Shown here piece after piece: positions 4,061 to 33,508 of a stretch of 34,188 nt of DNA. This DNA is from a virus. The translations under genes were made by a program, and so were the position numbers. The stretch lies in the IMG/VR virus record IMGVR_UViG_3300036829_000123, positions 1 to 34,188 of that record. The stretch is one strand, 5' to 3'. Under the pieces are notes generated by a model. The model saw only the letters and a list, made by a program, of their open reading frames with translations, had not been told where the DNA came from and searched no databases. Each line of letters starts with the position of its first letter. Position 1 is the stretch's first letter.

Positions 4061-4228
4061 CTAGTGCCCACTTTCCGAAGTTCGTGCTCCATTGCCGCAC
4101 GACCGTTCACGAACTTCGGAAAGTCATGGGCACCAGCAAATCTATGATTCTAGTACCGCTTTCGATCTGAAGTCCCTGAACCCAATTTCGACGCGAGTGA
4201 GTCAGGGACTTCAGATCGGCGGTACTAG
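4061..4228. repeat. Paired-hairpin (BIME-like) element, copy A
   Basis: Two tandem long hairpins make up 168 bp. Hairpin 1: outer arms 4061-4070 and 4127-4136 (one mismatch), inner 16-bp perfect arms 4071-4086 and 4108-4123, a 3-base TCA bulge on the right, loop of 21. Hairpin 2: outer 10-bp perfect arms 4150-4159 and 4219-4228, TTT bulge on the left, inner 17-bp perfect arms 4163-4179 and 4202-4218, loop of 22. A 13-base AT-rich linker separates them. The left and right borders are CTAG. Hairpin 2 is an inverted relative of hairpin 1. Copy B (9518-9685) has the same length and layout. There is no ORF or transposase inside. The right border CTAG contains the TAG stop of the capsid gene. Confidence 0.9.
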
Positions 4229-5271
4229 TCCGCGTTGGTCCGCTTGCCCGACAGCAGCGCGCCCGGCATGGTGCAAACCGCCAGCGGATAGGAGAAGGTC
4301 TCGACGTCGGCCCACATGTCGCGCTTCTCGTCCAGCACGACCCACGAATAGGTCGGCAGCCCCAGCGTGTTGACGAACTCGAACCGCGGCGCCGGCGCGC
4401 GCGCAATCTGGAAGATGCCGGCGTTGGACGGGAAGAACTTGGCGCGGGTCGAGGGCACGCCGACCACCGGCGTGTCGGTGCCGTCGCCATCGTCGGTGGA
4501 GCGGTAGTTGCTCCACAGGATGTCGCCGAACTGGAAATCCTGCCAGGCATTGCCGCCACGCAGTTCGACCGCCGCACTCCAGTTCAGGTAGGTCTGCCGC
4601 ACCTCGGAATGCGCGGTGAAGGCATCCCAGAACTTGTCGCCGCAGACGGCGCGAACCAGGACATTGTTGCCGCCGACACCCAGCAGCTGACGCTTGATGT
4701 GGCGGACCACCTGGTTGCACTGTGCCCGCAACGCGCCGGCCGCCGGGTTGGCGGCCTGCAGATCGAAATTCACCTCCGCGCCCTGCGCCTGGTTGAACTG
4801 GACGTTCCAGTCATAGATGGTGGATCCATCGGCATCGAGCAGCTTGCCCTGGATAACGCCCAGCCGCCAATTTTCCAGCGTCAGCTCGACGTCGTTCTTG
4901 ATCAGCAGCTGACGCCGGGCCACCTCGGTCATCAGCGACTTGACCTCGGTCTCGGAGCCGAAGGCGCGGATGTTCTGCAGCTCGTCCGCCATGATGCGCG
5001 AGCCCTCGCCGAGCGTCATGGCGCGGAAGGCGCGGGCGCCGCGCTGCTCGCCGCCGCGCTGCTTCGGCGCCGCGGCGCGCTCGGTGGTCTGGATCAGGGC
5101 CGCGCTGTTCGACCGCTCCTCGATCCAGACCGTGGTGGTGCGAATCGGCACGTCGACGAACAGGCCGGGAATGCTGCCGAGGAACTGCGGCACATAGCCC
5201 ATCTTGTCGACGGCGGAAGTGAGTGACGTCGACGAGAAAGCGTCGGCGCGGAAGGCGTCCATTGTGATCAT
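4225..5271 (-). CDS. Major capsid protein, lambda GpE family
   Basis: The 348-aa product has the length and motifs of lambda GpE-type (HK97-fold) capsid proteins: an N-terminus with FLGSIPGLFVDVPIRTTTVW, the segment EERSNSAALIQTTERAAAPK that enters the fold, and RMTLGEGSRI-like AFRAMTLGEGSRIMADELQN before the spine helix. It assembles the icosahedral shell with the scaffold and GpD-like protein encoded upstream. A GGAG Shine-Dalgarno sits 7 bases before ATG 5271. Its TAG stop is the reverse complement of the CTAG that borders the paired-hairpin element, so the element abuts the coding end exactly. The order GpC-GpD-GpE matches lambda. Confidence 0.93.
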   Translation of the reverse strand: MITMDAFRADAFSSTSLTSAVDKMGYVPQFLGSIPGLFVDVPIRTTTVWIEERSNSAALIQTTERAAAPKQRGGEQRGARAFRAMTLGEGSRIMADELQNIRAFGSETEVKSLMTEVARRQLLIKNDVELTLENWRLGVIQGKLLDADGSTIYDWNVQFNQAQGAEVNFDLQAANPAAGALRAQCNQVVRHIKRQLLGVGGNNVLVRAVCGDKFWDAFTAHSEVRQTYLNWSAAVELRGGNAWQDFQFGDILWSNYRSTDDGDGTDTPVVGVPSTRAKFFPSNAGIFQIARAPAPRFEFVNTLGLPTYSWVVLDEKRDMWADVETFSYPLAVCTMPGALLSGKRTNAD

Positions 5272-5355: not shown

Positions 5356-5412
5356 CTGGCGACGACTAAGGCGTCGCCCAGACGCGATCTCCGCAAACGC
5401 GCTTTGCGCGTT
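5356..5412 (-). other. Two intergenic hairpins between decoration and capsid genes
   Basis: A first stem pairs CTGGCGACG (5356-5364) with CGTCGCCCAG (5372-5381) with one bulged C. A second, perfect stem pairs AACGCGC (5396-5402) with GCGCGTT (5406-5412) around TTT and touches the stop codon of the decoration gene. Neither has a U-run on the minus strand. They may stabilise or separate the capsid mRNA, which must be made in large amounts. Confidence 0.4.
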
Positions 5413-6088
5413 AGCGGATGACGATGCCGAGCGCCTCGAGCTGGCGGATGGCCTCGGCCTTCTGGACCGCGGTGATGCCGCCAGGCCAGGTCAGGTCGGA
5501 GCCGCGCACTTCGGCCGACCGGGTGATGACGACCGCCCGCTGGGTGTTGGCACCATCGGTCGTCACATTCTCCCAGAGAATGCCCGCGGCCCGCTGGGTG
5601 CCGTCCACCGCCGCCGGCGCGAGCACTGCGACCTGATAGTCGCTTTCCTCGATGCCGACCGTGACCGAAAAGGCGTCGCCGATGGTCCAGTCGGTCGCGC
5701 CATCCGCGATCACGAACTTGATCTGGTTGTTGAAGGTGGCGCCGACCGCGACGCGGCCGATCTCGACGCCGTCCGGGTCGAACACCTGAAATTCGCCGCC
5801 GTTGGCAGCGACCAGATCGTTGACCACGCGATAGACGCCGTCCTTGGCACCGGCGGCGACCGGAGCAACCGCGTCGATGGTGAAGACGCCGTTGCCGGTG
5901 TTGCCGGCATCGGCGGCGACCGCCGACGTGACCTGGCCAACCACGGCGGTCTTGCCGATCACCTGGCCGGCCACCAGCACCTGGTTCAACGCGACGGTGA
6001 ACACATCGCGCGAGCGGCGCACTTCGGCCTCGCTCACCATGAAGCAACCCGGATGCTTCGCTTCCGTCAAAACGATACCTGTGGGCAT
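5411..6088 (-). CDS. Head decoration protein, GpD family
   Basis: The product is 225 aa, longer than lambda gpD (110 aa). Its N-terminus is typical of the family (MPTGIVLTEAKHPGCFMVSE) with the conserved SRDVFTV segment that follows. GpD-like trimers stabilise the expanded capsid after DNA packaging. The extra length carries a beta-rich insert of small residues (about 40-160), while the C-terminal GGITAVQKAEAIRQLEALGI is the usual family ending. A strong AAGGAG Shine-Dalgarno lies 8 bases before the ATG. It lies between the protease/scaffold gene and the capsid gene, as expected. Confidence 0.88.
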   Translation of the reverse strand: MPTGIVLTEAKHPGCFMVSEAEVRRSRDVFTVALNQVLVAGQVIGKTAVVGQVTSAVAADAGNTGNGVFTIDAVAPVAAGAKDGVYRVVNDLVAANGGEFQVFDPDGVEIGRVAVGATFNNQIKFVIADGATDWTIGDAFSVTVGIEESDYQVAVLAPAAVDGTQRAAGILWENVTTDGANTQRAVVITRSAEVRGSDLTWPGGITAVQKAEAIRQLEALGIVIR

Positions 6089-7781: not shown

Positions 7782-9512
7782 TCAGGGTTTCGCTGGCGCC
7801 TGCGGCGCAACGGTCGGTTTCGGCGGCGCCTGCCTGGTCGGCGCGTTCAGTTTTTTGCCATTCGCATCCGGCGCGAGCTGCTCGTCGGGATCGTCGCCGC
7901 CTGGCGGCGGCGCGCCGATAATGGTGCGCAGACTTTGCGTGCCGGAAAACTGGATGCCGAGCCGATCGGCGCGCGCGGCATCCTCGGCGATGCGCTGGTC
8001 GACCTCGGCGGCGTCGTAACCCTCCTCCTCGATCGACATCGAGCGCGCCTTGAAGCCGGCGTCGACCGCGAGGATTTCGGCCTGGCGATCCTTGAGCGGA
8101 TCGATCCACATCCAGCGCGGCGGAATCCAGTCCATGTCCAGATAGTCGGCCGGATTGTCGGCATAGCCGTCGAAGTCCAGGCTGCCGGCAATATGCGCGA
8201 AGTCCATGAAGGCGCGGAACACCGGCAGGCAGAGCTGGAAGACAATGATGCTCTTCTGGATGGTCTCGCCGCGGCGCTTGGCCTCGATCATCGCGGCGCG
8301 CTGGTTGCCATAGTTGGCTTTCAGGATGTCGCCGGTGACGCCGGCAAACGGCAGGCCCAGCGCCGCGCAGGCCCGCGTCAGCTGCCGGTACTGGAAAGGA
8401 TCATAGGACGCGCCGCTTTCCGCCGGCGCCGCAATCTTGACGTCCTCGCCATCGAGCAGCACATGCGCGGTGCCTGGCTTGAGCACGACATCGGCCGCGC
8501 CGTCGTCGGTGCCCGCACCATCGCCATCGCCGCTGCGTTGCGCCGGCTTCTTCTCCTTGTTGAAAAATTCGCCGTCCGGGTCGGGCCGGGTGATGAACAC
8601 CGAAAACAGCGCCGCGGTTTTCTTGCGCTCCAGCTCGGCATCGTCATAGAGATCGAGCATCCAGAGCGTGACGATCGCCGGCGTCAGCCGCGACAACCCC
8701 CTGATTTGCCCGGCCTCCAGCGGATCATAGATGTGCAGAATCTGGCTCGCCGGCACCCGCGCGCGCTCGCCGAACTTCGGCGCCTGGGTCAGGTCGCCCG
8801 GATTGACCCGCCAGAAATGATAGGCGACGCGCCGCCCGATTCTGTTGAACTCGATGCCCTGCCTGATCCAGTTGCCGTTGGCGAGCGGCATGGTCAGCTG
8901 AATCGCCAGCTGCTCGCTCGGAAACAATTCCAGCTGCAGCGGCACCGACAGGCCATCCGACAGAAAGCGCGGCCGCAAGCGGACGAACACCTCGCCGGCA
9001 ATGAACAGCTCGCGCGCCACCCGCTTCTGCAGGCCGTAGAAATCGGTGACGCCCTCGGCGTCGCACTCCTTGGTCCACCGGTTCCACAGCTTGTGGACCG
9101 TCTTTTTCTGATCGGATGCGGCCTTGGCCGCGTCCTTGGCATTGTCGTCCAGCGGCGGGCCGCCATTGTCGCCGATGCCGCGCGTGTTCTGATCGGCCTG
9201 CTCGATGTCGGGCACCGGCAGCGGCGACTTCCAGCTCGGCTTGATGCCGGTGCCGATGATGTTGGCGGCGAAGCATTCGACCGCGCTGTTGGCATAGCCG
9301 TTATTGCGGGCCAGGTAGCGCGCACGAGCCAGCGTGTTCGGCCCGGACTGACTGATCAGCGTGTTGACGTGAACGCGGCTCGGAATCCAGCTGCCCAGCC
9401 GGCGGCCGACCCGCCCGGCCTCCAGCCCGATGCCGTCGCCGCCAAACGCCTGCGCCATCACGGCGCCGGCGGACCGCCGCAGCGCGCGGCCTGCATTCTG
9501 CAGAATGCCCAT
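7782..9512 (-). CDS. Portal protein, lambda GpB family
   Basis: The 576-aa product has hallmarks of lambda-type portals: RARYLARNNGYANSAVECFA followed by NIIGTGIKPSW near residues 60-90, RVAYHFWRVNPGD in the clip/stem region, VPASQILHIYDPLEAGQIRG near residue 260, and WIPPRWMWIDPLKD with the following EGYDAAEVD near the C-terminus. It forms the dodecameric channel at one capsid vertex, docks the terminase and holds the tail connector. The start is ATG 9512 (MGILQNAG), only six bases from the border of hairpin element B. A GGAG that could serve as its ribosome site is the last stem segment of that element. Confidence 0.93.
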   Translation of the reverse strand: MGILQNAGRALRRSAGAVMAQAFGGDGIGLEAGRVGRRLGSWIPSRVHVNTLISQSGPNTLARARYLARNNGYANSAVECFAANIIGTGIKPSWKSPLPVPDIEQADQNTRGIGDNGGPPLDDNAKDAAKAASDQKKTVHKLWNRWTKECDAEGVTDFYGLQKRVARELFIAGEVFVRLRPRFLSDGLSVPLQLELFPSEQLAIQLTMPLANGNWIRQGIEFNRIGRRVAYHFWRVNPGDLTQAPKFGERARVPASQILHIYDPLEAGQIRGLSRLTPAIVTLWMLDLYDDAELERKKTAALFSVFITRPDPDGEFFNKEKKPAQRSGDGDGAGTDDGAADVVLKPGTAHVLLDGEDVKIAAPAESGASYDPFQYRQLTRACAALGLPFAGVTGDILKANYGNQRAAMIEAKRRGETIQKSIIVFQLCLPVFRAFMDFAHIAGSLDFDGYADNPADYLDMDWIPPRWMWIDPLKDRQAEILAVDAGFKARSMSIEEEGYDAAEVDQRIAEDAARADRLGIQFSGTQSLRTIIGAPPPGGDDPDEQLAPDANGKKLNAPTRQAPPKPTVAPQAPAKP

Positions 9513-9517
9513 CGCGT

Positions 9518-9685
9518 CTAGTGCTCCGATTCCGAAGTTCGCATCATGTCGCGGCACCCTCGTTTGCGAACTTCGGAATCAGAGGAGCACTAGCAATCTC
9601 TAATTCTAGTGCGGCTTTGACTTTGAAGTTCCGATGAAAGAAATGTGAGGAACGACTGATCGGAACTTCAAAGTCGCCGCACTAG
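9518..9685. repeat. Paired-hairpin (BIME-like) element, copy B
   Basis: The layout and length (168 bp) are the same as copy A. Hairpin 1: outer 10-bp perfect arms CTAGTGCTCC (9518-9527) and 9584-9593, inner 16-bp perfect arms 9528-9543 and 9565-9580, right-side AGA bulge, 21-base loop. Hairpin 2: outer 10-bp perfect arms 9606-9615 and 9676-9685, left-side TTT bulge, inner 17-bp perfect arms 9619-9635 and 9659-9675, 23-base loop. The linker is 12 bases. The stems differ from copy A at several positions but remain fully paired. It fills the gap between gpW and the portal gene, and its CTAG border includes the gpW stop. Confidence 0.9.
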
Positions 9686-9900
9686 AGATCCTTGCACGAG
9701 CTGAAATTATAGGTGCGCAGCACCCTGCCGCCGCTCAATGCCGCGATGTCGGTCTCGACGTCCTTGATCGCCGCCTTCAATTCCACGACCGATCGATAGC
9801 GCGTCAGGCGCCCGGCATAGCTGACCTCGAGCCGGCCGCTGCCCAGCGTGGTCTTCAGCGCATCAAGCCGCGCCTGCAATGTCGGGAGATCAGCGGGCAT
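9682..9900 (-). CDS. Head-tail joining protein, gpW-like
   Basis: The product is 72 aa, close to lambda gpW (68 aa). Features are an N-terminal helix with LQARLDALKTTLGSG, a short beta hairpin (RLEVSYAGRLTRYRS), and a second helix VVELKAAIKDVETDIAAL followed by RVLRTYNFSSC. This helix-hairpin-helix layout, the position between terminase and portal, and the size all match gpW, which binds the portal and completes the head. The TAG stop lies in the CTAG border of hairpin element B. Confidence 0.85.
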   Translation of the reverse strand: MPADLPTLQARLDALKTTLGSGRLEVSYAGRLTRYRSVVELKAAIKDVETDIAALSGGRVLRTYNFSSCKDL

Positions 9901-10148: not shown

Positions 10149-12140
10149 TCACCAGTTCATCGTTGTCGATTTCCGCCGGCGGCCTTGCGGCTTCGGCGAG
10201 CGCGGCGGTTCGGGCGCCTGCGTGGCATCCTCGACCGGCTTCAGGCTTGCCGCCTGGAACGGTCTCGGCGTGAACAGGTCCGGCGTGCGCATGTCGGCCG
10301 GGATGCCGCGCTCCTTGGCGCGCTCGGCCCAGTCGTCGGCCGTGAACGCCGCGAAATAGATGTCGGCGACGGCCATGTTGTAGACGCGGCAGTCGAGGTA
10401 GTGGTTCGGCGCGTTGCCGCCCTGCTGTTTCCAGATTTTTTTTAGCCGACCCTTGACGATATCGTCGTCGAGATATTCCGCGGTGATCTGCTTGAAGTAA
10501 TCCTCATCGAGGAACATCGGCAGGTGGCAATAACCGGGCGGGTAGACCACGGAGTTGCTTTCGACGATCGGCGCACGCGCCAGATATTCGTAAAAGGTCG
10601 ACTTCAGGTCCCAGGTGCCGACCAGGCGCAGCTTGGCGCCGCCCTTGAACTTTTTTCCCTTGTAGTCGACATCCTGATCGGTGGCGACGCCGAGCGGCAC
10701 GCGACGCCAGCCGTCCGCGCCCTTGACCGCCTTCACGCCGGGATGCCGCCGCGTGAACATATAGACGGCGTCGGTATGATAGTTCGCGTCGATCACAAAT
10801 TCATCGAAGCGCCAGCGGTTGCCATAGGCGTCCGGCCATTCGCGGCGATACAGCTCGGCGAGCGCCACGAAGGCGCCGTCGTCGATATCCGTGGTCGCGC
10901 CATCGAGATAATCGATATAGATCGGCCAGGTCTGCTGATCGGGCTTGTGCGCCAGCACCTCGACATAGATGCCGCGCTTCTGCACGTCGGCAGCAATGGT
11001 CAACAGCAGATAACCCGGCGGGATGTGGCCCAGCCTGCCCTCGACACGCCGCGCCATCAGCGTCTCGACCTCGGGCGCCTCCCCGCGCATGTCGTAGGCG
11101 AGACCGAAGGTCAGATTGTTCAGAGTCTTCAGCTTGGCCGGGTCGGCGCCGGCATCGACGATGCGCTGCGCGATCACATCCCATGGCACGAACGGCGAGG
11201 ACAGCGCGTCGAAATGATAGGAGCGATGCTTGCCCGGCCCCGGTGCGGTGGCAACCCAACGTCCGGCCTTGACCAGATCGTTGCGTTCCCAGGAGTGAAT
11301 GACCGAACCGCAGCACGGCGCAACATAATGCGCCTCATAGGGATAGGTCTTGTTGAAGCAAAACCGGTCCGGATGCGGCGTGAAGTAGAATTCCTCCGGG
11401 CAATGCGGGCAGCGCACGTGCCAATAGCGGCGGTCGCCAGCCTCGAACTCGCTGTCGATGTGACAGGCACCCTTCACCACCGGCGTCGATATCTTCAGGT
11501 GCTTCCAGTCGCCGCTGGCCAGAAACGATTCATAGGCGCCGGCGATCATGTCATGCGGCGAGCCCTGCCCGCCCAGATCGTCCGGGTATTCCGAGGACTC
11601 GTCCTCGATCACTTTCTTGCGGGTCTTGCCGCGCAGATCTGCGGTCGAGGTCGCAATGCCCATCAACAGCGAACCGCCGGTGAAGCGCTTCGAATAGGTG
11701 GTCGATCCTTTGTTGGAGCGCGAGGTCTGCGTCCGGATTTTCCGTTGCAGCGCCGGCGAGCCTTCGATGGCGCGCTGCAGCTTTTCGCCGACGAAGTCGG
11801 AGAGGTTTTCCTGCGTCGGCTCGATCAGAAAGACGTCGCATGGCTCGACATCGGCGGTGAATCCGCAGGCCGCCATCGCCAGCGTGGTGAAGCCGGTCTG
11901 TTTCGATTTGCGAACGACCGCCTTGTTATCCGGGCAGGCATCCGAAAAGAAATTCAGCGGCTCGACCAAATACGGCGTCAGCTCGAGTGAGAACAACTCG
12001 CCGGCGCGCGGTCCATCCGGCACCACAAGATTCTGCGCGGCCCATTCGGCCGGCGTGATCTCCTCACCGGGATCGAAGATTTCGGCGCCCAGCCGCGCCA
12101 TCGCCTGCGCGACGGTCGGCGCCGGAAACTGGATGTTCAC
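10149..12140 (-). CDS. Terminase large subunit, GpA family
   Basis: The product is 663 aa, the usual length for lambda GpA-type terminases. The ATPase has an adapted Walker A near residues 77-86 (RKSKQTGFTT) and an acidic VIEDESSEYP Walker B region with a downstream coupling segment. A zinc-ribbon-like pair (CPHC, CCGS) lies near residues 245-285. The C-terminal nuclease begins at LLTIAADVQKRGIYVEV and includes the acidic DANYHTD segment. It cuts concatemeric DNA at cos-like ends and pumps it into the portal. The start is GTG 12140, and no strong Shine-Dalgarno is visible. The C-terminus is a basic, Pro-rich tail. Confidence 0.95.
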   Translation of the reverse strand: MNIQFPAPTVAQAMARLGAEIFDPGEEITPAEWAAQNLVVPDGPRAGELFSLELTPYLVEPLNFFSDACPDNKAVVRKSKQTGFTTLAMAACGFTADVEPCDVFLIEPTQENLSDFVGEKLQRAIEGSPALQRKIRTQTSRSNKGSTTYSKRFTGGSLLMGIATSTADLRGKTRKKVIEDESSEYPDDLGGQGSPHDMIAGAYESFLASGDWKHLKISTPVVKGACHIDSEFEAGDRRYWHVRCPHCPEEFYFTPHPDRFCFNKTYPYEAHYVAPCCGSVIHSWERNDLVKAGRWVATAPGPGKHRSYHFDALSSPFVPWDVIAQRIVDAGADPAKLKTLNNLTFGLAYDMRGEAPEVETLMARRVEGRLGHIPPGYLLLTIAADVQKRGIYVEVLAHKPDQQTWPIYIDYLDGATTDIDDGAFVALAELYRREWPDAYGNRWRFDEFVIDANYHTDAVYMFTRRHPGVKAVKGADGWRRVPLGVATDQDVDYKGKKFKGGAKLRLVGTWDLKSTFYEYLARAPIVESNSVVYPPGYCHLPMFLDEDYFKQITAEYLDDDIVKGRLKKIWKQQGGNAPNHYLDCRVYNMAVADIYFAAFTADDWAERAKERGIPADMRTPDLFTPRPFQAASLKPVEDATQAPEPPRSPKPQGRRRKSTTMNW

Positions 12141-17223: not shown

Positions 17224-17391
17224 TAACGGGAGAGTCGGGAGGGTTTTTCTCATGTGCACGCGCTTGCGCTGCGCACACACACGCGCACGCAAGACAACAC
17301 GGCAAAAACCCTCCCAACACTCCCGTTACGTTTTGCCTCAACGACTTAACCCTCCCGTTCGACCATCCCGCCGGGAGGGTTAACCCTCCCG
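17224..17391. repeat. Cluster of GGGAGGGTT inverted repeats (candidate origin or control site)
   Basis: The 17077-17397 gap contains two large inverted repeats. Arms 17224-17248 and 17304-17328 match at 23 of 25 positions (TAACGGGAG...GGGAGGGTTTTT and its complement) around a 55-base loop of GCGCAC-rich sequence. A perfect 20-bp palindrome, CGGGAGGGTTAACCCTCCCG, lies at 17372-17391, with a further half site TTAACCCTCCCG at 17346-17357. Related copies occur inside the primase gene at about 19065-19085 and 19141-19150. The location beside a primase-helicase gene suggests an initiator-binding or replication-origin function; a strong bidirectional terminator is the alternative. Confidence 0.7.
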
Positions 17392-21448: not shown

Positions 21449-21951
21449 TCTCCGATCACTTCCCGCTTGAGTGCGCCGATCTTGTCGTCTTGTTCCTGCA
21501 CATCGCCTATCAGCGCCACGATCCACCAGCGTTCGCCTTTCCATTTCGGCGGAACAAATGTGGCGTGCAGGGCTCGGTGAGTGCAGATTTTCAGCGGTCC
21601 ATCGACCACCTCGAGCGTGCCTGGCTTAACCGGCAAACCGGTGCCCCCATTGCACGCGCGACCTTTCTCATCCGACCGCCAGAAAGCGATCGTCGCCCCT
21701 TCTTTCTGAAGCTCGCGCAAGCGAGCTTGCATGGAGTCAGGCCACTTCCGTGCGAAGCACGGAATGGTGGCCTGCCAATATTCTTTCGAGCCGTAGCCGT
21801 AGCCGTCGCCGTCGCCGGAGCCGTAGCCGTAGCCGTAGCCGTAGCCGTAGCCGTAGCCGGAGCCGTAGCCGTAGCCGTCGCCGTAGCCGTCGCCGGAGAG
21901 CAACGAGTGCGGGACTTCGCCCCGCACGAGTCGTGCTTCAGTCAGCGCCAT
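21439..21951 (-). CDS. Protein with long Gly-Tyr/Gly-Asp/Gly-Ser repeat
   Basis: The product is 170 aa from ATG 21951 (MALTEARLVRGEVP), which overlaps the DUF6948 stop. Residues about 20-55 are 18 tandem dipeptides GY, GD or GS coded by a hexanucleotide array. A globular C-terminal domain follows, starting KEYWQATIPCFA and including ATIAFWRSDEKGRACNGG, GPLKICTHRALHATFVPP and WWIVALIGDVQEQDDKIGAL. Proteins with a G(D/Y/S) tract before an 'EYW.A.IP' domain occur in other actinobacterial and proteobacterial genomes, as I recall. The role is unknown. Confidence 0.7.
   Translation of the reverse strand: MALTEARLVRGEVPHSLLSGDGYGDGYGYGSGYGYGYGYGYGYGSGDGDGYGYGSKEYWQATIPCFARKWPDSMQARLRELQKEGATIAFWRSDEKGRACNGGTGLPVKPGTLEVVDGPLKICTHRALHATFVPPKWKGERWWIVALIGDVQEQDDKIGALKREVIGECL
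21790..21896. repeat. Hexanucleotide microsatellite (18 units) inside a gene
   Basis: On the plus strand, GCCGTA, GCCGTC and GCCGGA units are repeated about 18 times without interruption. The 6-base unit encodes dipeptides on the minus strand, so gain or loss of units keeps the reading frame and only changes tract length. Confidence 0.92.
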
Positions 21952-28852: not shown

Positions 28853-29103
28853 GCAGATTGCTCAACCAATTGAGGGGCCGGATAGACGTCCGGACGCAGT
28901 TCGTGACGCGGCACGCCGGTCATGTTTTCGATTAGTGGGCAAAACTCGGCCGGTACGCCCTTCTTCGATTTCAGCAACCAGTAAGAGACCTGCGACTGCG
29001 TGGTTTCGATGCCTTGAGCCAGCGGAACCTGACCGCCAGCAACATCGATCGCCCTTTGAAGGGCGGCGCGTTTTGCAGCAACGAGCGAATCAGAATCAGT
29101 CAT
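28849..29103 (-). CDS. cro: Cro-like repressor, YdaS family
   Basis: The product is 84 aa from ATG 29103; the longer in-frame sequence would run through the operators. The helix-turn-helix (RAIDVAGGQVPLAQGIETTQ, SQVSYWLLKSKKGVPAEFCP) and the end IENMTGVPRHELRPDVYP are typical of YdaS/Cro-type proteins. Its gene diverges from the repressor gene across shared operators at 29116-29197. It is expected to shut off the CI promoter and set lytic development. Confidence 0.85.
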   Translation of the reverse strand: MTDSDSLVAAKRAALQRAIDVAGGQVPLAQGIETTQSQVSYWLLKSKKGVPAEFCPLIENMTGVPRHELRPDVYPAPQLVEQSA

Positions 29104-29115
29104 GTCGCAAGCGTT

Positions 29116-29197
29116 ACCGAATTTTCGGTTTGATGCAAAGAAAATACCGAAATCTCTGTGGGAGTTTCGGTACCGAAGTTTCGGTAGCATTTCGGTG
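29116..29197. promoter_or_regulatory. CI/Cro operator cluster
   Basis: The half-site TTCGGT and its complement recur. Full sites ACCGAA-NN-TTCGGT lie at 29116-29129 and 29172-29185. Half sites occur at 29145-29152 (TACCGAAA), 29165-29172 (TTTCGGTA) and 29190-29197 (TTTCGGTG, touching the CI start). TTCGGTACCGAA at 29166-29177 is also a perfect 12-bp palindrome. These occupy the entire cro-cI gap, so bound repressor would cover both start regions. Confidence 0.85.
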
Positions 29198-29941
29198 ATG
29201 GCGAAGCCTTCGAAACCGAAATATCCCGTCGGACCGCGCATTGCCGGCCTACGTGCCGAGCGCGGGATTACGCAAACAGACCTCGCTGAAGCTGTGGATA
29301 TGACCCAGCAGGGCATTCAAAGCATCGAGGCTGGAGGGGTTAAGCGCCCGAAAAATCTTCGCGAGATCGCTGCTCGCTTAAGAACCACAGAAACCTGGCT
29401 GCTCGAACAAAAAGGCCCGCGCGACATCGATGACCTTGACGACCACATCGACAGCGCCGACGTCGGGTCAATGGGCCGCCCTTCCGGCGGCATCCGCGAA
29501 ATAGACGTACGCGCCGGTCTTGGTGGTGGTGGCACGACAGAAGGCCGAGAAGTCCGGCACCACGGCGACTACGCCGATCCCCTGAAGCCGGAAGCCTGGA
29601 AATTCCCGACACGATTCATGCGCGAAGAAATTCGCGGCACGGAGAGCCAGGTCATCATCCTTGAAACTGACGGCGATAGCATGGAGCCGACCATTGGTTC
29701 GGGCGAGCGCATTATCGTCCACACCGGCATGGTAACGCCATCGCCTGATGGCATTTTCGCTCTGCGCGACACGTTCGGAAACATTGTCGCGAAGAGGCTC
29801 CAGATACTTCGCAAGGGCGACAAGACTGACGTTCCCCGCGTCCTCATCATTTCGGACAACAAGTCCCACCCCACCGAAGAGGTCGGGCTCGACCAGATCA
29901 GCATTGTGGGGAGAGTGCTATGGGCACTAAAGCGGGTCTGA
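29198..29941 (+). CDS. CI-type repressor with S24/LexA-like self-cleavage domain
   Basis: The product is 247 aa from ATG 29198; the frame continues upstream through the operators, so this start is preferred. The N-terminal XRE helix-turn-helix (IAGLRAERGITQTDLAEAVD, MTQQGIQSIEAGGVKRPKNL) is followed by a linker with an Ala106-Gly107 cleavage site (VRAGLGG). The C-terminal peptidase has Ser161 (DGDSMEPTIGSGER) and Lys199 (NIVAKRL), the LexA-type dyad. It maintains lysogeny and is inactivated in the SOS response. Two cargo genes follow, so they may be expressed from the prophage. Confidence 0.93.
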   Translation: MAKPSKPKYPVGPRIAGLRAERGITQTDLAEAVDMTQQGIQSIEAGGVKRPKNLREIAARLRTTETWLLEQKGPRDIDDLDDHIDSADVGSMGRPSGGIREIDVRAGLGGGGTTEGREVRHHGDYADPLKPEAWKFPTRFMREEIRGTESQVIILETDGDSMEPTIGSGERIIVHTGMVTPSPDGIFALRDTFGNIVAKRLQILRKGDKTDVPRVLIISDNKSHPTEEVGLDQISIVGRVLWALKRV

Positions 29942-32166: not shown

Positions 32167-32555
32167 CCCGGCTTCGCCAAGGAGGCTATGCCGGGCAAGC
32201 CGATCAGCCGCTGACCATGAACGAGGCGGCGGCGCATTTCCGGGTGTCAAGACGCTACTTCCAGGACTTTATTGCCGACCACCCGTTTTGTCGCATCATG
32301 GGTCGCCGTAAGCTGTTCTTCCCCGACGACCTCGACCGCATCCAGGAAGTGCTCGACCGGCCATGCCCCTCAAACTCAAAGCCCCGCGCCAGGGCAAATC
32401 GCCGAACTACAGCATCCGGGGCACCTACCTCGGAGTCTACGTTGACCGCACTGCGGGCACTCCTGACAAAAAGCTCGCCGGCGACCAGCTCAAGCTCATC
32501 AAACGATCAATCGAACGTGGTGAATATCAAAAGCCGGTCGAACCGGAGCCGGTAG
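32163..32555 (+). CDS. Excisionase-like helix-turn-helix protein
   Basis: The product is up to 130 aa from GTG 32163 (GTGA overlap). Residues 16-66 (PLTMNEAAAHFRVSRRYFQD, GRRKLFFPDDLDRIQEVLDR) fit the HTH_17/AlpA-Xis domain. The C-terminal half is a low-complexity Ser/Arg-rich tail that overlaps the integrase gene by 193 bp in another frame. It may therefore be a structural tail or the price of a compact overlap. Excisionase function is inferred from domain and position. Confidence 0.75.
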   Translation: MTRLRQGGYAGQADQPLTMNEAAAHFRVSRRYFQDFIADHPFCRIMGRRKLFFPDDLDRIQEVLDRPCPSNSKPRARANRRTTASGAPTSESTLTALRALLTKSSPATSSSSSNDQSNVVNIKSRSNRSR

Positions 32556-33508
32556 AGGCGCCGCGGCCGCCTACCTTCGCCGATGCTGCGCTGGCCTATC
32601 TGCGCGCCGATGGCGACCCCAAGGGACTGCACGAGATCATCGAAGCCACCGGCCAGCATGCGCTGCGCGACAAGGCGCTTGCCTCGATCGACCAGATCGC
32701 GATCGACAACGCCGCGCGCGCGCTCTACCCCACGGCCGCGGCCACCACGCTGAACCGGCAATTCTACACGCCGGTGTCCGCGGTGATGAAACGCGCCGGC
32801 GTCGAGCGCAAGATCAAACGGCCGAAGGGCTGGCGCGGCAGCAAGGCGACGTCGTGGCTGGACCCGGAGCCGGCATTCCGCGTGGTCGCCGAGGCCTATG
32901 CCATCGAGTACGAGTTCGGCCTGTTCTGCGAGACGCTGCTCTACACCGGCATGCGGTTGAGCGAACCGCTGCGCGCCAGGCTGCGCGACATCAGGCTGGA
33001 CCAGGCGCTGCTTTATATTGGCGACAGCAAGAACGGCGAGCCGCGCCCGGTGCACCTGCCGCCGCACATGGTCGATGCCTACCGCAACGCGCCGCCGCGC
33101 ATGGGCAGGCCGCGCAAGGCCGACGGGATGCCGCTGGGAAACGGCGCGGCCGGCCGGTCGCGAGGCAGCGCCGGCGTGCCATGGCTGGAACGCCAGCCCG
33201 ACGAAAAGCTGTTCCGGTTTGCGGCCGGCGGCCGGTTGCGCACAATGCTGAAGCTGGCGATGGCGCGCGCCGGCGTCGCGTTCCCGCGTCGCCAGGGCGG
33301 CTTCCATCTGTTCTGCCACACCTACGGCACCTGGATGACGCACTTCGGCGGGCTCGATACCTACGGCCTGGTGCGCACCAGGCGCTGGAAGGACCCGGAC
33401 TCCGCCGATCGCTACAACCACACCATGGCGACGCCGGAGGCGAAGCGGGCGGATCTGTTGCCGGTGCCGGTGAACCGAACGCAGCATCCCAAGACAAAGG
33501 CCGGGTAG
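32363..33508 (+). CDS. int: Tyrosine integrase
   Basis: The product is 381 aa. The N-terminal arm-binding part (KLKAPRQGKSPNYSIRGTYL) precedes a core-binding domain (about 70-160) and a catalytic domain. Visible catalytic residues are Arg198 (TGMRLSE), Lys223 (GDSKNGEPRP), His315, Trp342 and Tyr351 (DRYNHT). The second Arg of the HxxR motif is replaced: FHLFCHTYGT has Cys318 (codon TGC 33314-33316, one base from CGC). The enzyme recombines the tRNA-located attachment site, whose 3' part ends at 34168. The missing Arg could weaken or abolish activity, or be a lineage-specific variant. Confidence 0.92.
   Translation: MPLKLKAPRQGKSPNYSIRGTYLGVYVDRTAGTPDKKLAGDQLKLIKRSIERGEYQKPVEPEPVEAPRPPTFADAALAYLRADGDPKGLHEIIEATGQHALRDKALASIDQIAIDNAARALYPTAAATTLNRQFYTPVSAVMKRAGVERKIKRPKGWRGSKATSWLDPEPAFRVVAEAYAIEYEFGLFCETLLYTGMRLSEPLRARLRDIRLDQALLYIGDSKNGEPRPVHLPPHMVDAYRNAPPRMGRPRKADGMPLGNGAAGRSRGSAGVPWLERQPDEKLFRFAAGGRLRTMLKLAMARAGVAFPRRQGGFHLFCHTYGTWMTHFGGLDTYGLVRTRRWKDPDSADRYNHTMATPEAKRADLLPVPVNRTQHPKTKAG

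Follow-up and report, generated by a model that had tools for sequence, protein, structure and literature searches.

The window, the whole 34,188-nucleotide stretch of IMG/VR record IMGVR_UViG_3300036829_000123, represents a temperate phage whose head genes lie on the minus strand. The head-gene block includes genes for the terminase large subunit (10149–12140), the head maturation protease, and head decoration (5411–6088). The portal gene (7782–9512) and the major capsid gene (4225–5271; ORF call, PHROG 29, E = 1.4e-42) are on the same strand, as is a small head gene (9682–9900) that was read from the frame and is gpW-like by position and size only. An integrase (32363–33508) and a CI-like repressor (29102–29941) are also encoded. 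In addition, a separate 46-nt imperfect inverted repeat (76%), adjoined by CCCTCCCGTTA-like repeats, is located between two genes at 17224–17328, and an array of the hexanucleotide AGCCGT is present within an ORF at 21777–21920; its minus-strand reading is a Gly-Tyr rich repeat.

Structure and position of the two double-hairpin elements

A complete double-hairpin element of the form CTAG...CTAG, termed copy A, occupies 168 bp at 4061–4228 on the plus strand and was delimited by its sequence, its fold, and a covariance model (72.9 and 76.2 bits for the two units). Hairpin unit 1 (4061–4136, plus strand; supported in the same three ways) consists of an arm (4061–4086), a 21-nt loop (4087–4107), and a 3' arm divided into an inner arm (4108–4123), a 3-nt bulge TCA (4124–4126), and an outer arm (4127–4136), where the terminal CTAG has mutated to CCAG. 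After a 13-nt linker (4137–4149, plus strand) follows hairpin unit 2 (4150–4228), an inverted unit on the minus strand, whose bulge TTT (4160–4162) lies in the 5' arm as read on the plus strand. The folding energy of copy A was −54.5 kcal/mol versus a shuffled mean of −22.6 (z = −10.9), and no shuffle equalled it. Copy B, a complete element of another subfamily recognised by sequence and covariance model (82.9 and 74.7 bits), occupies 9518–9685 on the plus strand, with hairpin unit 1 at 9518–9593 (plus strand, AGA bulge in the 3' arm), a linker at 9594–9605 (12 nt, plus strand), and the inverted unit 2 at 9606–9685 (minus strand, TTT bulge in the 5' arm on the plus strand).

An earlier note on this DNA had described the two copies as alike in length, bulges, and linker type. 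Both are indeed 168 bp long, with bulges of the same size and TTT on the left, but the hairpin 1 bulge differs in sequence and the linkers are similar rather than equal in length. The note's view that most stem differences are compensated was borne out by the comparison of 52 stem pairs, with both sides changed in 15 of them and a single side in one; pairing is Watson–Crick in 51 of the 52 pairs of copy A and in all 52 of copy B.

Both elements lie at stop codons of the late operon. The right CTAG of copy A contains the TAG stop of the major capsid gene, and that of copy B contains the TAG stop of the small head gene; as the downstream genes are also intact, the reading frames are spared. The portal gene begins 5 nt downstream of copy B; the terminal GGAG of this copy (9513–9530, minus strand) lies approximately 11 nt ahead of the start codon and may serve as the ribosome-binding site of the gene. 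Five to seven phage relatives, with capsid genes 70–85% identical, were without the elements. Site A is empty in L010–L016, whose capsid genes terminate directly with TGA or TAA, and site B is empty in L011–L013, L015, and L016, where a few bases separate the small head gene from the portal gene. An intrinsic terminator was rejected, as neither copy has a T-run after it in the direction of transcription.

A CTAG-bounded repeat family in Hyphomicrobiales

BLASTN against phage and plasmid records returned no match. With the exact hairpin 1 pattern, at least 120 bacterial genome stretches were matched, nearly all from Hyphomicrobiales (Bradyrhizobium, Rhodoplanes, Hyphomicrobium, and Xanthobacteraceae), with some from Phenylobacterium and a few others; among viral contigs, the same pattern gave one other match (L138). 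Exact hairpin 2 and hairpin 1 right-arm patterns gave chance matches only among viral contigs, and a loose linker pattern was swamped by chance matches.

When hairpin 2 is reverse-complemented, it aligns with hairpin 1 as a single unit, which consists of CTAGTG, a 10-bp outer stem, an inner stem of about 16 bp, and a loop of about 19–25 nt, often with GCNGC. A bulge of 3–6 nt, rich in A, is present in the 3' arm of the unit only. The element is composed of one unit of 73–82 nt, a linker of 12–15 nt (from 198 element readings), and an inverted unit, and the bulges faced the linker in 110 of 117 adjacent unit pairs with a spacing of 8–20 nt. This architecture, the bulge position, and the CTAG at the unit ends are conserved across subfamilies. 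Single bulge-less hairpins resembling the fused outer arms of two units were seen at L199:1976–2047, L245:5381–5454, and L144:6012–6082, and are perhaps products of deletion or recombination.

The covariance model R1 detected units in 39 of 249 genomes drawn from the order Hyphomicrobiales, with a patchy spread. A phylum-wide draw with a stricter cut-off yielded units in 10 of 299 genomes, nine of which were already in the order draw. Seven carrier genomes each gave from 129 to at least 150 model matches, a count that exceeds the number of units because one unit can match on both strands; when the full match lists were resolved, about 69 units remained in G003 and about 80 in G006, with higher numbers in other genomes. 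Seemingly single units in these two genomes were mostly doublets whose second unit had been missed by the model.

The two phage copies belong to different branches of this family. Copy A differs at one of 72 arm positions from the family members L186, L187, and L252, and copy B at none of 72 from L196, versus 20 of 72 between A and B. The A-like L186 and L187 and the B-like L196 all come from one metagenome-assembled genome (MAG), Bradyrhizobium sp. clean1649. Since each copy matches a different element of this MAG, the paired differences between A and B are, judged by these sequence matches, those that separate two old subfamilies within a bacterial repeat. Copy A is therefore not a second, diverged copy of B, and the paired changes were not made within the phage; the two copies represent separate insertions of older host subfamilies.

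CTAG was present at both ends in 90 of 109 elements, and the flanks beyond were near random; the frequency of CTAG in the loci was 0.28 of expectation. Abutting elements share one CTAG at 24 junctions, some of which were perhaps counted from both strands, and CTAGCTAG was never seen at such junctions. Tandem chains whose neighbours have one common CTAG occur in L165, L171, L152, and L148. Since one CTAG is shared and CTAGCTAG is missing from these junctions, a single new CTAG appears to arise with each insertion, by duplication of the target CTAG or of the TA within it; this reading is drawn from the shared junctions and homologous sites, at which the duplication of TA and that of CTAG look the same. 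Beyond the CTAG of a unit, L180 (near 7771, minus strand) and L308 (after 3627) carry another insertion-sequence-like end, and these hairpin units seem to be landing sites for such CTAG-specific elements.

Maintenance of the paired stems

The earlier note had proposed a covariance check, and this gave very strong covariation for a structure that was named in advance. In 32 diverse units, 96.9% of stem cells were standard pairs, compared with 76.1% in shuffles and 25–40% in slid structures, and 21 of 26 pairs had changed on both sides. The number of double-change cells was 180, versus a shuffled mean of 54 (0 of 500 shuffles as high) and 4–39 in slid structures. These results support a structured family. 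Among 150 aligned units, 3,828 cells were Watson–Crick pairs, 23 were G–T, 26 were A–C, and 17 were of other kinds. Nearest neighbours differed by 12 paired and 47 one-sided changes, the latter including 19 G–T and 18 A–C.

Loci had been gathered by searching for the exact left-arm sequence of hairpin 1, and alignment A3 contained the best-scoring units only, both of which favour good stems; to limit this bias, we used the inner stems of hairpin 2, which lay outside both the search pattern and the detection rule. In these stems, 39 of 1,017 pairs had changed (3.8%) versus 14.3% per loop site, whereas about 26% of pairs would be expected to change if both sites evolved at the loop rate, and about 14% under perfect neutral copying between arms. 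The loops were best matched in direct orientation in 185 of 193 cases and inverted in eight, of which at least four look like reversed or rearranged units.

These data bear on two rival accounts of the paired changes. One is a conserved structured RNA in the phage mRNA, such as an RNase III processing site or an mRNA stabiliser, as T7 uses; the two copies are located between late genes, read in the direction of transcription, and as RNA their hairpins would be very stable. In an RNA helix, G–U would be tolerated far more than A–C, and no excess of G–U was seen. No Rfam family matched the window at the gathering threshold (0 matches), with only weak miRNA matches, far below the cut-off, around copy A; moreover, the elements are absent from the phage relatives, and most copies are in bacterial chromosomes. 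We consider a structured RNA highly improbable. In the other account, the paired changes arose solely by copying from arm to arm, through template switching or gene conversion, and the fold itself was not selected. Hairpins with compensatory changes can be created and preserved by template switching (PMC8794818), 12 paired changes already separate nearest neighbours, and G–T intermediates are not favoured. However, neutral copying predicts that pairs change as often as loop sites, several-fold more than was observed, and template switching between arms is reported to invert loops as well (PMC8604942), while the loops of the family are nearly always direct. The conservation of architecture, bulge place, and CTAG ends across subfamilies is a further point against arm copying as the sole cause, which is thus quite unlikely.

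Because G–T mismatches are no commoner than A–C, the fold appears to be kept strand-symmetrically as DNA and not as RNA. The earlier suggestion of selection for the folded form therefore holds as far as a structured family is concerned, but not for a fold of the RNA type. Homogenisation of inverted repeats, which the note had named as a refuting alternative, may be the source of some paired changes, with template switching as a possible helper to selection, but it accounts neither for the several-fold lower rate of change in stems than in loops nor for the near absence of inverted loops. Hence, selection acting on the fold as the elements spread is a better account than arm copying alone.

Known repeats and the search for a mobilising enzyme

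REPINs and GTAG-tagged REPs resemble the family in having two mirror-image, imperfect palindromes with a bulged stem, a short spacer, a short conserved outer tetranucleotide tag, many copies, and a patchy spread. If the elements were REPINs proper, the inverted REP units would be moved by a host Y1 transposase (RAYT/TnpA_REP), and bulged hairpins of single-stranded REP DNA are recognised by TnpA_REP (PMC8266576). However, the tag of REPs is GTAG (or degenerate GYRG) at the 5' foot of the palindrome, which is absent from the new family, tagged CTAG at both ends of each unit. Its units, with 26-bp stems, are twice as long as REP units, which measure 20–40 bp with stems of 5–13 bp (PMC3733652), and, unlike REPs, they have no G–T pairing in the stems and share CTAG between tandem copies. 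A Y1 transposase also went undetected in most carriers: Y1 (PF01797, IS200/RAYT) was unmatched in 18 of 23 carriers (4 of 7 and 14 of 16), although the same search was positive in the E. coli and Caulobacter controls. An IS200-like Y1 gene does adjoin a copy in two genomes; the gene encodes a Y1 transposase of 143 aa and is part of an IS200-like unit that stands directly after a double-hairpin copy and ends in CTAG (L259:1185–2013 and L260:1187–2013). The terminal CTAG of the element seems to have been the insertion site of this IS200-like unit, and other Y1 genes have no hairpin unit nearby. On the whole, REPINs proper are unlikely. Very unlikely is a MITE moved by a DDE transposase of the IS630/Tc1 type, which would target CTAG with TA duplication, as these transposases do. 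Such MITEs are likewise short and non-autonomous with terminal inverted repeats, and the single CTAG common to tandem neighbours fits TA duplication inside CTAG. Nevertheless, DDE_3 (PF13358, IS630-type) was unmatched in 14 of 24 carriers (4 of 8 and 10 of 16), no unit-like ends were seen at the IS630 loci examined in the first set of carriers, and a DDE element needs no pair of internal bulged hairpins. Both carrier searches included assemblies with chromosome-sized contigs among genomes of unstated completeness, and the absences are evidence against, not proof, as Pfam can miss distant relatives.

A composite autonomous element, CTAG–hairpins–tnpA–CTAG, was also considered for L259 and L260 and rejected: the tnpA gene looks like part of an ordinary IS200-like unit located at the terminal CTAG, and went undetected in most carriers. 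Clustering of the recurrent genes adjoining copies brought out no mobility gene.

CGTC-tagged REP families, found mostly in Alphaproteobacteria, are mostly head-to-head dimers and, like the new family, not associated with transposase genes (PMC3733652). They differ in having their own tag and bulges, stems of 8–9 bp, and loops of 4–5 nt. The Rhizobium-specific intergenic mosaic element (RIME), an element of about 110–130 bp in rhizobia, is the nearest rhizobial element by description alone; its likeness lies in its two large palindromes, and its distribution (Rhizobium/Sinorhizobium) appears different. We found no description of a CTAG-tagged repeat family in the open-access literature, although one may exist elsewhere. 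Our verdict is that the elements form an apparently new REPIN/MITE-like family.

Taken together, it is probable that copy A is a non-autonomous mobile DNA element whose family spread in Hyphomicrobiales and jumped twice into the prophage. The hairpins would arise where the DNA is single-stranded, as on the lagging strand or in an excised intermediate, and a host-encoded enzyme acting in trans would recognise the bulged stems and insert the element at CTAG, duplicating CTAG or the TA inside. Copies with a broken stem would stop spreading, so that paired changes would accumulate in the lineages still moving. The insertions would be tolerated by the phage because CTAG contains a TAG stop codon, with which the upstream gene retains its stop while the downstream gene is untouched. 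Of the readings offered in the earlier note, the best fit is that of independent copies kept by an enzyme that recognises their structure, although the searches above linked no mobilising enzyme to the family. More tentatively, a system that is neither RAYT/Y1 nor IS630 may recognise the bulged DNA hairpins of about 76 nt, insert mirror pairs at CTAG, have filled many Hyphomicrobiales genomes, and be able to enter phages; we regard this as possible rather than probable.

In this family, paired mutations maintain DNA hairpins without wobble intermediates, and do so with unusual clarity; as many subfamilies coexist in one genome, the data allow selection during transposition to be told apart from copying between arms. 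Should the elements prove to be moved by something other than RAYT or IS630, a CTAG-specific recombinase that recognises hairpins is still to be discovered in common bacteria of soil and nodules. The phage copies illustrate one way in which such repeats can pass from host to host, and how tightly packed genes escape damage when an insertion falls at a C-TAG stop codon.
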